A stretch of 64,000 bases of DNA from Methanothrix soehngenii GP6 (GTDB lineage: Archaea; Halobacteriota; Methanosarcinia; Methanotrichales; Methanotrichaceae): assembly GCF_000204415.1 (NCBI RefSeq), contig NC_015416.1, positions 1,302,001-1,366,000 on the forward strand, in the 5' to 3' direction. Within the stretch, counting starts at the first letter, position 1; each line of letters opens with the position of its first letter. Under the pieces are notes generated by a model that worked only from the letters and a program-made list of their open reading frames with translations, was not told the DNA's origin and did not search any database. Shown here in pieces: positions 31,439 to 37,223 of the stretch. A program made the translations under genes and the position numbers.

Positions 31439-31483
31439 TAATAGATTACTAGAATATGGCAGAATAAAGAAGAGGGGATGGAT

Positions 31484-32596
31484 ATGAAGTACATCATCGA
31501 CGATGCCATGGGCAGGGCTGAGGCTGAGAGCAGGGTCAAGCCTTCCAGCATGATTAAGAGCGATGAGGAGCTAGTGTCAGTTCTCGAGGAACTGACCACG
31601 GTCATCAGGGTAATTGGTTGTGGTGGAGGAGGCTCGAACACCATCGACCGCCTGGCAGAATGCGGCATCCAGGGGGCAGAGCTCTTTGCGGTGAACACCG
31701 ATGCTCAGCACCTTTTGCATATCAATGCCGATCGCCGTTTCCTGATCGGCAGGCGTACAACTCGCGGCCTGGGCGCGGGCAGCCTGCCTGCCATCGGTGA
31801 AGAGGCTGCTCAAGAGGATATAGATGAGATCAGAGCGGCAGTGGATGGAGCGGACATGGTCTTCGTCACCTGCGGCCTTGGGGGCGGCACAGGCACTGGC
31901 GCCTCGCCGGTGGTGGCAGAGGCGGCCCGTGAGGCGGGCGCTCTTACCATCTCCATCGTTACCATTCCCTTCAGCGCAGAGGGGACGATAAGAATGCAGA
32001 ATGCAGAAGCGGGCTTAAATAGGCTGCGAGAGGTCTCAGACACCGTGATCGTGGTGCCAAACGATCGACTTTTGGATGTCGTTCCCAACCTTCCCCTGCA
32101 GGCGGCCTTCAAGGTGGCGGATGAGGTGCTGATGCGCTCGGTCAAGGGGATTACTGAGCTCATAACCCGTCCCGGTCTGATCAACCTGGATTTCGCCGAT
32201 GTTAGAACGGTGATGACAAACGGCGGAGTGGCTATGATCGGAATGGGTGAGGCACAGGGAGAGGAGAAGGCGCGGGACTCGGTATCGAAAGCCCTGCGAA
32301 GTCCCCTCCTGGATGTGGACGTATCCTGCGCGACATCCGCCCTGGTTAACGTGGTTGGAGGTTCTGACATGACCATCACCGATGCCGAGACCGTGGTGGA
32401 TGAGGTCTATCAGAAGATAAATCCTGAGGCTCGGATCATCTGGGGAGCACAAATAGACCAGAACCTCGACCATACCCTGAGGACCATGCTGGTGGTTACA
32501 GGAGTCTCGTCTCCCCAAATACTGGGAAAGGACATGAGCAAGAGGGTGACCTCAAGGCATGGCATAGACTTCCTATCCCGGCGGGCACGTTATTGA
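31484..32596 (+). CDS. ftsZ: Cell division protein FtsZ
   Basis: A 370-residue tubulin-like GTPase that forms the division ring. It has [14 protein letters not shown] near residue 46, the tubulin signature [14 protein letters not shown] near residue 132, and the T7-loop region [11 protein letters not shown] near residue 235. GAGGGG lies six bases before ATG 31484, which gives the usual archaeal start [10 protein letters not shown]; an ATG two codons earlier is possible. The C-terminus is short and lacks the bacterial FtsA/ZipA-binding peptide. Confidence 0.97.
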
Positions 32597-33123: not shown

Positions 33124-34764
33124 ATGCTCTATCGCCAAATAGCCCAGTCTATAGAGGAGCTATCCTCCGCCCCGCGCAGCTGCAAAGCGGAGTTGTGCTC
33201 CCGCCTGATTGTTGAGATGAAACCTGAATTGCTCTGCCCTACGATCCGTCTCCTGTTGGGCCAGCTCTGGCCGCCCTGGGAGGGCAGGGAGATGGGGGTG
33301 GGGCCAGAGGGAGTCGCTGCCGCTCTGGAGGAAATCTCGGAAGAGAATATATCCCTGCTCAGAGATCGAATGGGGGAGATGGGGCTGGTGGCGGAGGCTG
33401 CACTGGCGGAAAAAGGCCAGCATTCGCTCTCCAGTGAGCCTCTACAGTCCATGTCCGTATACGAACAGCTAAGGCGGATCTCTCTGATTCGGGGCAAGGA
33501 CTCCGAGCAGAGAAAGAACGCTCTTCTCCGGGGCCTCTTCCAGGATGCGAGTCCCCTTGAGGGAAAGTATATCGCTCGCACAGTTCTAGGAAATATGCTC
33601 GCCGGAATCGGCGATAAGACCATGCTTGCTGCTTTTGCTCTGGCCTTCTGCTGTGACCCGGATCAGATTCATAGGGCCTATAGCCTCCTGCCGGACCCGG
33701 GCAAGATCGCCATCATGGCTGCCGGAAACCATTTGGAAAGAGCGTCCATCCAGCCGGGCATTCCCATAAAGCCGATGACGCTATGCGCCCTGAAGGCAGA
33801 GGATCTAAAGACCGTCAGAGAAGCGGGAGAGGAATCAGTGGGATGGGCGGTTTTACCCAGGTATCATGCCCTGAGGGTGCAGGTTCATAATACAGGAGAT
33901 GGGGCTTATATCTTCAGCTCCCGGCAGAAGAACATCACCACCTCGTTAAACGGCCTGGCCCAAAGGCTGAGCGGCATGGATGATGAATTCATAATCGATG
34001 CCGATCTGATCGGCTTTCATGAGGGGAAGATGTGCTCTCAATCGGAGATGCTCAGATATATCAACCGCCGCCGCCTCTCCCGAAGAAGCAGCATATCGCC
34101 TGCCCTGCTAGCCTACGATCTTATCTACATTTCTGGCGAGAACACCATCTCCCTGCCCTTCCAGGAGAGGCGAAAGAGGATGCTGAAAGCTTTGGGCGAG
34201 CCCAGGTCCATGCCCTTTCAGGGAATATCTGCGACCCGTGAATGTATCGTCCTGGAGAAGGAGCTAAAGAAGGACTCTATTCAGAGCCATCTGGACCAGA
34301 TGGTGGAAGAGGGCGGAGTGGGCTTGATGGTGCGGAGCCTTCTGGGCCTCTACCGGCCTGGAGAATGCAGCAGATGCGATTTCTTTGTGGGAAGAGAGAT
34401 GTCCATATCAGCCGTTATCGTCCGGGCGGAGTGGGGCCGGAGGAGCAGTGATCAGATCTTCTCTCGATTTCTCGTCGCCCTGCGAGAAGGGGACGACCTC
34501 GTGCCAGTGGGCTGGATAGGGGGTCAATCGGGCCAGAAGGATATTCTGGAGCTGGATCGCCAGTTGAAAGCCCTAGCCAGAGAATGGGATGATACTGGTG
34601 CTTGTGTCAATCCCCAGGTTCTCCTCAAGCTGAAGATCCAGGGTGCTCGCAGGAACGATAAGGGCTATGCCATCGTCCGCCCTCAGGTTTTAGGGATCGA
34701 TCTTTTTGCCTCCTGGGAGGATGCGGATGAACTGACTAGGCTTTTTTCATCCTCTGGCCGATGA
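33124..34764 (+). CDS. ATP-dependent DNA ligase-like protein with degenerate active site
   Basis: A 546-residue protein with the full archaeal ligase layout: N-terminal DNA-binding domain (VLGNMLAGIGDKTMLAAFALAF), nucleotidyltransferase core and OB fold. Motif I, normally KYDGxRVQ, reads RYHALRVQVH near residue 246, so the lysine that carries AMP is arginine, and Asp and Gly are also changed. Motif IV (EGxMxK) reads VGLMVRS, and motif V (WLKxK) reads DFFVGR. Motif IIIa (LLAYDLIYISGE) is kept. It is therefore probably not an active ligase but may still bind DNA. The gene starts at the stop of the regulator and overlaps the radical SAM gene by four bases. Confidence 0.85.
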   Translation: MLYRQIAQSIEELSSAPRSCKAELCSRLIVEMKPELLCPTIRLLLGQLWPPWEGREMGVGPEGVAAALEEISEENISLLRDRMGEMGLVAEAALAEKGQHSLSSEPLQSMSVYEQLRRISLIRGKDSEQRKNALLRGLFQDASPLEGKYIARTVLGNMLAGIGDKTMLAAFALAFCCDPDQIHRAYSLLPDPGKIAIMAAGNHLERASIQPGIPIKPMTLCALKAEDLKTVREAGEESVGWAVLPRYHALRVQVHNTGDGAYIFSSRQKNITTSLNGLAQRLSGMDDEFIIDADLIGFHEGKMCSQSEMLRYINRRRLSRRSSISPALLAYDLIYISGENTISLPFQERRKRMLKALGEPRSMPFQGISATRECIVLEKELKKDSIQSHLDQMVEEGGVGLMVRSLLGLYRPGECSRCDFFVGREMSISAVIVRAEWGRRSSDQIFSRFLVALREGDDLVPVGWIGGQSGQKDILELDRQLKALAREWDDTGACVNPQVLLKLKIQGARRNDKGYAIVRPQVLGIDLFASWEDADELTRLFSSSGR

Positions 34765-35615
34765 TCCTCAGAGCATTTGACCCCTGGAAGAGCGAGCTGT
34801 GCACCTGCCCTGCCAAGCTCAGCCTCAATCCCTATACCGGTTGCCCGCACGGCTGCCTTTACTGCTATGCCTCATCTTATATCCCCCGGTTCCATTCCTG
34901 CCGGCCGAAGGTCGATCTATTGAGGAGGCTTGACCGAGAGGCGGCCAAGGTCGTCCCCGGACTCTTTATTGCTATCTCCAACAGCTCCGATCCTTATCCT
35001 CCCATAGAAAAGGAGCTGGGATTGACCAGGGGATGCCTGAGGATACTGAAAGAGAGGAACTTTCGGGTGCAGATCGTCACAAAGTCCGATCTTGTCACCA
35101 GGGATATCGATCTCCTCGCCGCAATGAAGGCGGCGGTGGCCGTCACAGTCACCACATTGGATGATTCCCTAAGCCTGAGGCTGGAGCCGGGGGCGCCATC
35201 GCCAAAAAGAAGGCTCTTTGCACTGAATGAGCTATCTCGAGCGGGAATTCCCCTGTCAGCCAGAATCGATCCCATCATCCCGGGAATCAATGACTGCGGG
35301 ATCGAGGACCTGGTCTATTCTCTTCATTCCGCTGGGGTCAGGCATATAACCTCCTCCACATATAAGGCACGGCCAGATAGCATAAAAAAAATCACTGCTG
35401 CCTTTCCGGAGGAGGGAGCGGCCCTAAAAGCGCTCTTCTCCCGGGGAGGGAGATATTCGGGCAGCAGCTATCTTCCGGCGGATTTGAGAAGGAGCATTCT
35501 GGAGGATGTAGCATCCCATGCCCATCAGACTGGCATCACCTTCTCCACCTGCAGGGAGGGATTCGCATTTGAGGAGGGCATAAGCTGCGATGGCTCTCAT
35601 CTCCTGCCTCTGTAA
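34761..35615 (+). CDS. Radical SAM protein, spore photoproduct lyase-like (SplB type)
   Basis: A 284-residue radical SAM enzyme. The iron-sulfur motif is CPHGCLYCYASS (Cys-x3-Cys-x2-Cys) near residue 28. It is preceded by CPAKLSLNPYTG, the pattern of the SplB/Rv2578c-like family, and ISNSSDPYPPIEKELGLTRGCL follows. Spore photoproduct lyase repairs a thymine dimer; the archaeal members have no assigned substrate. ATG at 34761 overlaps the ligase-like stop (ATGA), so the two are translationally coupled, which suggests a shared DNA-linked task. Confidence 0.88.
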   Translation: MILRAFDPWKSELCTCPAKLSLNPYTGCPHGCLYCYASSYIPRFHSCRPKVDLLRRLDREAAKVVPGLFIAISNSSDPYPPIEKELGLTRGCLRILKERNFRVQIVTKSDLVTRDIDLLAAMKAAVAVTVTTLDDSLSLRLEPGAPSPKRRLFALNELSRAGIPLSARIDPIIPGINDCGIEDLVYSLHSAGVRHITSSTYKARPDSIKKITAAFPEEGAALKALFSRGGRYSGSSYLPADLRRSILEDVASHAHQTGITFSTCREGFAFEEGISCDGSHLLPL

Positions 35616-35903
35616 TCAGCAGCTAAATTAACGAAGTGGATAAAAAATAAATTAAATAGTTTGTATAAGATATAGATATCGACAATCGGCTAATTCGAAT
35701 CGGTATTCTCCCTTCTACCGGATTCCTTTTGCTGGATATTAAAAAAAATCATAAATGCAATGCGTCAACCTTATGGTGCCCTTTGCCCACGAAAGTTTAT
35801 TTATATGAAGAATAACTAGAATCCACGACAATTCTTCTCAAAAGGGAGGATGTTCAAGCCATAGTCATAAATGTCATATGCAAGAGCAAAAGGAGGATTC
35901 GAT

Positions 35904-37223
35904 ATGAAAAACATTCTGGCCATCAGCATGGCCATCATGATAGCAGCCATTGTTATGATGCCTGCTCTAGGTTATTCTGAGGAGATGGCAGAAAATCCGT
36001 CTTATACAGTGGCCTCGGCAGGGAATCAGTCTTATTCTGCAGGCTCTGCAGGAAGTCAATCTTATACCGCCACATCAGCAGGAGTGCTGTCCAATACCGC
36101 AGCCAATGCTGGAAGAAAAGGCTTTAGCTTCTCAACCGGAGTTGCCGCTCATAACCTCACCTCGGATATGGTAACAGAAGTAAATTCTGTGAGCGCCTCT
36201 CCAGAACTGGGCATCAGGATTCCCTACTCCATCAAAGACGGATCCATGGTTCCTTACTCCATCCAGCAAGGATTCATTGTCCCATACTCGTCAAAGCTGG
36301 GATCCATCGTTCCCTACTCGATCCAGATGGGATCATATGCTTCGTACTCTATCAAGCTGATGGATGAGACCAACGCTACCCTACGAGGCACCTATCAGAC
36401 CGTGAAGCTCGAGCCAACGAAGCTGGGCAGCATTGCCCGCAAAGAGGCCGTAGCATTGGCAGGCGAAACCCCGTCTGTTGCCGCGGTCGAGACACCAGAG
36501 GTCCAGGAAGTAGCTCTGAATGAGACGGCAGCTCTGAATGAGACTGTAGCTTTGAATGAGACTGTAGCTTTGAATGAGACGGCAGCTCTGAATGAGACGG
36601 CAGCTCTGAATGAGACGGCAGCTCTGAATGAGACGGTAGCTCTGAATGAGACGGCAGCTCTGAATGAGACGGTAGCTCTGAATGAGACGGCAGCTCTGAA
36701 TGAGACGGTAGCTCTGAATGAGACGGTAGCTCTGAATGAGACGATAGCTCTGAATGAGACGGTAGCTCTGAATGAGACGGTAGCTCTGAATGAGACGGTA
36801 GCTCTGAATGAGACGGTAGCTCTGAATGAGACGGTAGCTCTGAATGAGACGGTAGCTCTGAATGAGACGGTAGCTCTGAATGAGACCGCCGCAACTGATG
36901 CCGTCGCTGAAGCGGTACGGGGATACACCATTGAGGGCGTTGTATTCGAGGATCTGGACGGAAATGGGGTAATGAATGTCAACGAATCTGGCCTTGCCAA
37001 TTGGACAGTCAACCTGGAGCAACCTGAGGGTGTGATTATCACGAGCGTCAACACCTCAGCAGACGGAAAGTTCATCTTCCTCAACCAGCTTCCTGGTGTA
37101 TATACAATCAAAGAGGTCCTTCAAGCAGGCTGGACGCTTATCTCACCCGCTGATGGCAAGTTCACCGCAGAGGTCATAAACGAGAGCGTGACCCACCTGG
37201 AGTTCGCCAATAACCAATCCTGA
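35904..37223 (+). CDS. Secreted repeat protein with SdrD_B-like C-terminal domain
   Basis: A 439-residue exported protein. A signal peptide (MKNILAISMAIMIAAIVMMPALGYS) is followed by three repeat zones: QSYTA.SAG repeats, then PYSIKxGSMV-like 12-residue repeats near residue 110, then 21 copies of (A/V)ALNET with a sequon in each. The last 100 residues (GYTIEGVVFEDLDGNGVMNVNESGLANWTVNLEQPEG, then TIKEVLQAGWTLISP) look like an SdrD B-type beta-sandwich. GGAGG lies eight bases before ATG 35904. It is probably a glycosylated surface or sheath protein. A terminator-like hairpin follows. Confidence 0.82.
   Translation: MKNILAISMAIMIAAIVMMPALGYSEEMAENPSYTVASAGNQSYSAGSAGSQSYTATSAGVLSNTAANAGRKGFSFSTGVAAHNLTSDMVTEVNSVSASPELGIRIPYSIKDGSMVPYSIQQGFIVPYSSKLGSIVPYSIQMGSYASYSIKLMDETNATLRGTYQTVKLEPTKLGSIARKEAVALAGETPSVAAVETPEVQEVALNETAALNETVALNETVALNETAALNETAALNETAALNETVALNETAALNETVALNETAALNETVALNETVALNETIALNETVALNETVALNETVALNETVALNETVALNETVALNETVALNETAATDAVAEAVRGYTIEGVVFEDLDGNGVMNVNESGLANWTVNLEQPEGVIITSVNTSADGKFIFLNQLPGVYTIKEVLQAGWTLISPADGKFTAEVINESVTHLEFANNQS
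36510..36887 (+). repeat. 21 tandem copies of an 18-bp coding repeat
   Basis: GTAGCTCTGAATGAGACG is repeated 21 times in perfect 18-bp register (378 bp). The only changes are at a few positions, mostly the second base of the first codon (GTA, GCA or ATA) and the leucine codon. The near identity of the copies points to recent expansion by slippage or recombination. It encodes (V/A/I)ALNET, so each unit adds one N-glycosylation sequon. Confidence 0.97.

Follow-up and report, generated by a model that had tools for sequence, protein, structure and literature searches.

Genomic Context and Gene Features

The window analysed here is a 64,000-nucleotide stretch of Methanothrix soehngenii GP6, whose genome comprises two contigs (3,026,645 bases); the window lies on the contig of 3,008,626 bases. 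The family to which the organism belongs, the Methanotrichaceae, consists of acetate-consuming methane archaea that are abundant methane producers. At the centre of this study is a gene, referred to below as pLIG, that lies between a winged-helix gene and a radical-SAM gene; the features of the locus are summarized in Table 1.

Table 1. Genes, domains, and motifs at the pLIG locus (positions within the window)
Feature	Position	Strand	Remarks
FtsZ-family gene	31478..32596	+	first gene upstream of the HTH-pLIG pair in nearly all syntenic loci
Winged-helix (HTH) gene, 102 aa	32815..33123	+	ends 0 nt before pLIG
pLIG, pseudo-ligase gene	33124..34764	+	546 aa, three-domain LigI architecture
DNA-binding domain of pLIG, about residues 1-206	33124..33741	+	limits approximate
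Q99-H-S-L102, where archaeal LigI has its PCNA-binding motif	33418..33429	+	comparison of motif position
Degenerate nucleotidyltransferase domain of pLIG, about residues 207-424	33742..34395	+	
Motif I of pLIG, RYHALRVQ for KYDGARVQ	33859..33882	+	comparison with own-genome LigA
Motif IV of pLIG, GGVGLMVR for GHEGLILK	34312..34335	+	comparison with own-genome LigA
Motif V of pLIG, DFFVGR for WLKIKP	34378..34395	+	comparison with own-genome LigA
OB domain of pLIG, about residues 425-546	34396..34761	+	present here
Radical-SAM gene, PA0069/Rv2578c-like	34761..35615	+	4-nt overlap with pLIG; adjoins it in most genera

A sequence-only reading of this DNA had described pLIG as a ligase-like gene with an intact frame and an architecture of normal length, and both descriptions hold. 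The reading frame runs from an ATG to a stop codon with no internal stop. Its product matches the Pfam domains DNA_ligase_A_N (8e-31) and DNA_ligase_A_M (3e-15), both of which were found in 34 of 34 members of the pLIG family, and among solved structures archaeal LigI proteins come closest, with alignments that span residues 2-540. Structure prediction with AlphaFold2 on 34 family members yielded a model of mean pLDDT 90 and pTM 0.83, and the PDB matches listed for it by Foldseek are all ATP-dependent DNA ligases. With a DNA-binding and a nucleotidyltransferase domain in LigI order and a LigI fold, pLIG belongs to the LigI fold family.

Loss of the Catalytic Residues

The changes in motifs I, IV, and V noted in the earlier reading were all borne out by comparison with the intact LigA of the same genome (contig C1, 705174-706781; KYDGARVQ, GHEGLILK, and WLKIKP). 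In motif I of pLIG, R246 takes the place of the AMP-accepting lysine, H248 that of the aspartate, and A249 that of the glycine; V399 and R404 stand at the glutamate and lysine positions of motif IV, and both lysines of motif V are gone. Motif VI is affected as well, its arginine, aspartate, and lysine being replaced by D526, F528, and A529. The protein thus lacks what an active ligase displays: KxDG in motif I, the glutamate of motif IV, the lysines of motif V, and RxDK in motif VI.

These losses extend to the whole family. Residues were counted in 37 pLIG orthologues, with the numbering of the GP6 LigA. The motif I aspartate (D252), R270, the motif IV glutamate (E395), and K417 of motif V are retained in none of the 37, K419 of motif V in about one, and E299 in 12; the K400 column holds lysine in one orthologue and arginine in 34, and the motif VI lysine K531 is absent from every orthologue that bears an OB domain. 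The reference set of 35 true LigA sequences covers the Methanotrichaceae, six more families of their class, and one additional family from the phylum; in it the motifs are intact in at least 90% of sequences at each catalytic column. Recurrence of the same catalytic losses in 37 of 37 orthologues is beyond chance, and places the loss at the level of the family; the motif I lysine by itself is not diagnostic, with lysine in 18 of 37, arginine in 14, and other residues in five at the K250 column.

That lysine, together with R349 and D332, which are retained in nearly all orthologues, is what might be cited for an enzyme that still transfers nucleotides, either through displaced residues or by new chemistry on, for example, RNA or another nucleotide. 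We regard such activity as highly improbable, given that the motif I aspartate, the motif IV glutamate, and the motif V lysines are missing throughout and that 24 of 37 orthologues lack the OB domain and with it motif VI. The OB domain carries motif VI, which is required for step 1 of ligation. A catalytic lysine relocated elsewhere in the protein, which would have overturned the earlier reading, was looked for and ruled out: none was found in pLIG, and no family-wide lysine substitutes for those that were lost.

Distribution, Phylogeny, and Other Ligases

The pLIG family was assembled from whole-genome searches. A profile search found an orthologue in 49 of 50 Methanotrichaceae genomes, the one without a match (G004) being 56% complete. 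LigA was found in 48 of the 50; the two that lack it are metagenome assemblies, G007 (58% complete) and G021 (97% complete), and a few others have it as fragments. The pLIG sequences form a single clade (support 100/100) separate from LigA, with branches longer than those of LigA, and the gene is single-copy with open frames across 11 genera. The branches are too long for pLIG to be rooted among the ligases, and the tree itself warns of long-branch joining.

When the search was extended across the phylum (296 genomes, of which nearly all reach 90% completeness), no match outside the Methanotrichaceae was better than about 1e-86, most pLIG proteins scoring 1e-122 or better; the pLIG of genus g5 scores about 1e-75 to 1e-79, within the range of LigA, so that a highly divergent pLIG elsewhere could escape a criterion based on score. 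Descent of pLIG from LigA2, a second LigI-type ligase of the neighbouring family f3, was considered and rejected, since LigA2 keeps its motifs and forms a separate clade. The pLIG protein had no PADLOC match that would mark it as a member of a defence system.

The earlier reading had asked for a second, active ligase in the genome; the LigA described above, with all its motifs present, is such an enzyme, which excludes the case that pLIG is the only ligase of its genome. The GP6 genome also contains a Ku-like gene, named by inspection rather than by a family search, that shares a 4-nt overlap with an intact LigD-type ligase gene (L003, 599-2394; contig C1 of G000 near 2743300-2745100), and the two form an apparent two-gene archaeal end-joining set.

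A separate observation concerns two of the second LigI-type ligases (L041 and L042, minus strand, in genomes of the same class), whose motifs are intact. Near the start of each ORF, after the ATG, an in-frame TAG occurs at the same site (IANFF*ELEGKEVKDS, the asterisk marking the TAG), where the relative L043 has glutamine. This TAG is a candidate for a pyrrolysine residue in a DNA ligase.

Selection and the OB Domain

The ratio of nonsynonymous to synonymous substitution (dN/dS), which the earlier reading had proposed as a check, is well below 1 for pLIG in every pair, as expected of purifying selection. By the YN00 method the values are mostly 0.22-0.37, reaching 0.53 in the closest pairs, against 0.08-0.23 for LigA of the matching genome pairs; in summary, about 0.2-0.3 for pLIG versus 0.12-0.16 for LigA. 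For other genes, YN00 gave mostly less than 0.1 for HTH (from more diverged pairs), about 0.02 for FtsZ, and about 0.1-0.35 for radical SAM. The NG86 method gave 0.16-0.27 in nine pLIG pairs, with a bootstrap maximum of 0.43, and, when pLIG was divided, 0.10-0.22 for the DNA-binding domain versus 0.19-0.41 for the rest; purifying selection is thus strongest in the DNA-binding domain.

The OB domain has had a different fate. It is absent from 24 of 37 orthologues, the OB-bearing count including one sequence (L095) that is cut by a contig end and has its C-terminal part on another contig. Parsimony places 10 gains or losses of the domain on the tree, of which at least six are forced by well-supported branches, and the sequences thus show it to be dispensable and repeatedly lost. 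In the clade of L088, L092, and L094, deletion of the OB domain leaves the last codons of the gene. Two close orthologues lost the domain in different ways, one retaining an out-of-frame remnant downstream and the other showing an internal deletion with the C-terminal end kept (L083, 6699-8164, and L089, 6654-8006).

Repeated loss of this domain, a dN/dS above that of LigA, and the position of pLIG as the fastest-evolving gene of its operon block could be taken as signs of a gene in decay, deprived of its ligase function and held for now by operon structure. We consider this very unlikely: frames are open and the gene single-copy across the 11 genera, dN/dS does not approach 1 even at the bootstrap maximum, the fold is predicted with confidence, invariant pLIG residues differ from those of LigA, and genus g5 keeps the gene despite its exit from the operon. 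A recent pseudogene is likewise ruled out by family-wide conservation and dN/dS. Pseudoenzymes are well known among kinases and other enzyme classes, and pLIG bears their marks in an active paralogue in the same genome and an intact frame under purifying selection.

The DNA-Binding Domain and a PCNA-Type Peptide

The domains of pLIG have diverged from LigA unequally: the DNA-binding domain keeps a fraction of 0.62 of its LigA-conserved columns, the nucleotidyltransferase domain 0.37, and the OB domain 0.28. The family also has near-invariant residues of its own that are absent from LigA: Y3, L10 (isoleucine here), L43, W49, L116, R130, G137, P190, I313, N314, and Y346 (phenylalanine here), eight of these 11 being in the DNA-binding domain. 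Such residues, having no LigA counterpart, suggest new constraint rather than relaxation alone. In favour of DNA binding, near-fixed basic positions have been gained in the DNA-binding domain (R18, K21, R42, R130, and R136); against it, the LigA-invariant arginines of the "RxGxGEGxxRDA" segment (LigA R168 and R177) have been lost. The net charge of the domain, -4 versus -5 in LigA of the same genome, is nearly equal in the two proteins and so does not decide the question of DNA binding. On these comparisons it is plausible that pLIG is a DNA-nick binding factor, as the earlier reading had proposed; that it binds DNA through this domain we would put at an even chance.

The PCNA-binding motif of Pyrococcus furiosus LigI is QKSFF (PMC6212441). 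At the corresponding place in pLIG, Q99 is invariant in 37 of 37 orthologues and position 102 is leucine or isoleucine in all 37; the aromatic residue that follows is lost in the GP6 protein. The protein may contact PCNA.

The near-invariant QxxL peptide, at the place where LigI binds PCNA, also bears on the idea that pLIG regulates ligation or clamp traffic in its own cell, competing with or recruiting LigA (or Ku/LigD) at nicks or at PCNA. A live LigA coexists with pLIG in nearly all genomes, and there are parallels: joining by Lig3 is promoted by inactive Lig4 (PMC9638927), and a catalytically dead Dnl4 in yeast helps a different ligase to do the joining (PMC3694833). We nevertheless think this role unlikely: the aromatic part of the motif is kept in some orthologues only, pLIG is linked to the HTH gene rather than to replication genes, and Ku/LigD may not be universal in the family.

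The Winged-Helix Gene and the Neighbourhood

The gene order TrmB-like, FtsZ, HTH, pLIG, radical SAM recurs in the Methanotrichaceae. Within it the distance from HTH to pLIG stays within -1 to +6 nt at every one of 30 loci, and is exactly 0 at 23 (two loci were left out of this count: L078, where the HTH frame runs on with an apparent gap of 105 nt, and L104, where the start was not resolved), whereas the distance from FtsZ to HTH ranges from 8 to 1596 nt. A fixed gap beside a variable one argues for selected coupling of the HTH gene and pLIG, beyond inherited synteny.

The winged-helix protein is well conserved in the Methanotrichaceae, with a mean column identity of 80% and about 40 invariant residues, and its model (pLDDT 93.5) has long flanking helices and is nearest in fold to the DNA-binding domain of CggR. 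It is nearly universal in the class, occurring in 181 of 200 genomes. Across the class it is found in other contexts where pLIG is lacking, and genus g5 has its pLIG away from the HTH gene, beside a phosphatase-like gene; the pair is therefore not obligate.

The earlier reading had pLIG sandwiched between an HTH regulator and a spore-photoproduct-lyase-like radical-SAM gene. The spacing, 0 nt on one side and a 4-nt overlap on the other, is as it described, and the arrangement carries weight on the HTH side; on the radical-SAM side it does not, the gene not having been found in 11 pLIG-keeping genomes of genera g9 and g4. The likeness to the lyase is slight: the protein is closest to the PA0069 (1e-43) and Rv2578c (1e-26) families, both under their curated cut-offs, and its match to the spore photoproduct lyase model TIGR04070 is weak (6e-4, 18.9 bits versus a cut-off of 400). 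Partnership of the two proteins in the repair of an unusual DNA lesion, with pLIG as a scaffold or damage sensor, would fit the overlap seen here and the adjacency in most genera; in view of the weak family assignment to a DNA lesion enzyme, the missing gene in g9 and g4, and its separation from pLIG in g5, we think it quite improbable. As a constant partner of pLIG the radical-SAM protein is rejected.

Downstream of the radical-SAM gene, an ORF at 35871-37223 of the window encodes many tandem ALNETV/ALNETA hexapeptides before a C-terminal part, and homologues occur downstream of radical SAM in most Methanotrichaceae genomes. In G001 (L085, 3185-6727), about 3.5 kb that includes a repeat-protein-like ORF lies between a truncated pLIG and radical SAM.

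A Proposed Role for pLIG

Taken together, the family-wide losses, the purifying selection, and the coupling to the HTH gene identify pLIG as a family-specific pseudo-ligase, and annotation of the gene as "DNA ligase" by domain match would be wrong. The claim that it is kept without ligase activity is strongly supported by its conservation across the family, the catalytic losses, the purifying selection, and the intact LigA elsewhere in the genome; judged by these sequence comparisons, pLIG has almost certainly lost ligase activity and is maintained by selection. Retained despite dead catalysis and tied to the gene of a small DNA-binding regulator, it probably has a non-catalytic job on DNA.

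We propose that an ancestor of the Methanotrichaceae gained a further LigI-type ligase gene in a single event, by duplication or by acquisition, that all ligation chemistry disappeared before the family radiated, and that this extra gene persisted as a stand-alone pseudo-ligase which would no longer transfer AMP. Duplex DNA would be held by its DNA-binding domain, perhaps at nicks or PCNA-loaded sites, and the dead nucleotidyltransferase domain would act as a second arm. Translation of pLIG together with the winged-helix protein would reflect joint action or a fixed ratio, and the two would most likely form a DNA-bound regulatory or accessory complex. That pLIG is a functional partner of the winged-helix protein is suggested by the gene spacing, and we hold it tentatively, at somewhat short of even. 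For the explanation as a whole, an ancestral pseudo-ligase serving as a DNA-binding adaptor made with the winged-helix protein, we judge the chances to be balanced, an estimate weighted towards its sequence-based part.

A more specific form, in which pLIG would serve as the subunit that engages DNA or as the effector in a two-gene regulator of transcription or chromosome maintenance, together with the CggR-like winged-helix protein, is doubtful. Were it true, a ligase fold would have been turned into a gene regulator that is cellular, stand-alone, and universal in one archaeal family. What makes pLIG of interest is its age, its presence throughout the family, and its pairing with the gene of a regulator; as a natural experiment it bears on what in a ligase remains of use once catalysis is gone, with the DNA-binding domain kept and the OB domain dropped repeatedly.

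Comparison with Known Systems

In the open-access literature that was searched, we found no published inactive archaeal ligase, nor any cellular organism with a dead DNA ligase that is both free-standing and family-wide; the nearest natural case found there is a poxvirus protein domain.

The archaeal LigI proteins of Thermococcus (3rr5/9df9), Pyrococcus furiosus (2cfm), and Archaeoglobus (3gde) share with pLIG the three-domain fold, its order, and its length, at 26-28% identity over the full length. Unlike them, pLIG has all key catalytic motifs replaced, lacks the OB domain in two thirds of its orthologues, and is coupled to an HTH gene. Like pLIG, LigA2 of family f3 (L041-L046; we take this family to be the Methanosarcinaceae) is an additional LigI-type gene, and it occurs in the same class of archaea, but it differs in its intact motifs (KYDGERVQ) and separate clade.

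In two further cases a ligase is put to use without catalysis. The poxvirus processivity factor A20 has a middle domain that is an inactive DNA ligase, and like pLIG this domain is a natural ligase fold without activity and with a structural use (PMC11142717); it sits inside a viral polymerase cofactor and has catalytic and OB parts, whereas pLIG is a cellular protein that stands free and has retained the DNA-binding domain of LigI. Dead DNA ligase IV mutants (human K273A and yeast Dnl4) do structural work at DNA breaks without catalysis (PMC9638927, PMC3694833); these were made in the laboratory from an active enzyme and act within the ligase IV end-joining complex, and pLIG is a natural paralogue. 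For the usefulness of a dead ligase, the A20 domain and the dead ligase IV mutants serve as precedents.
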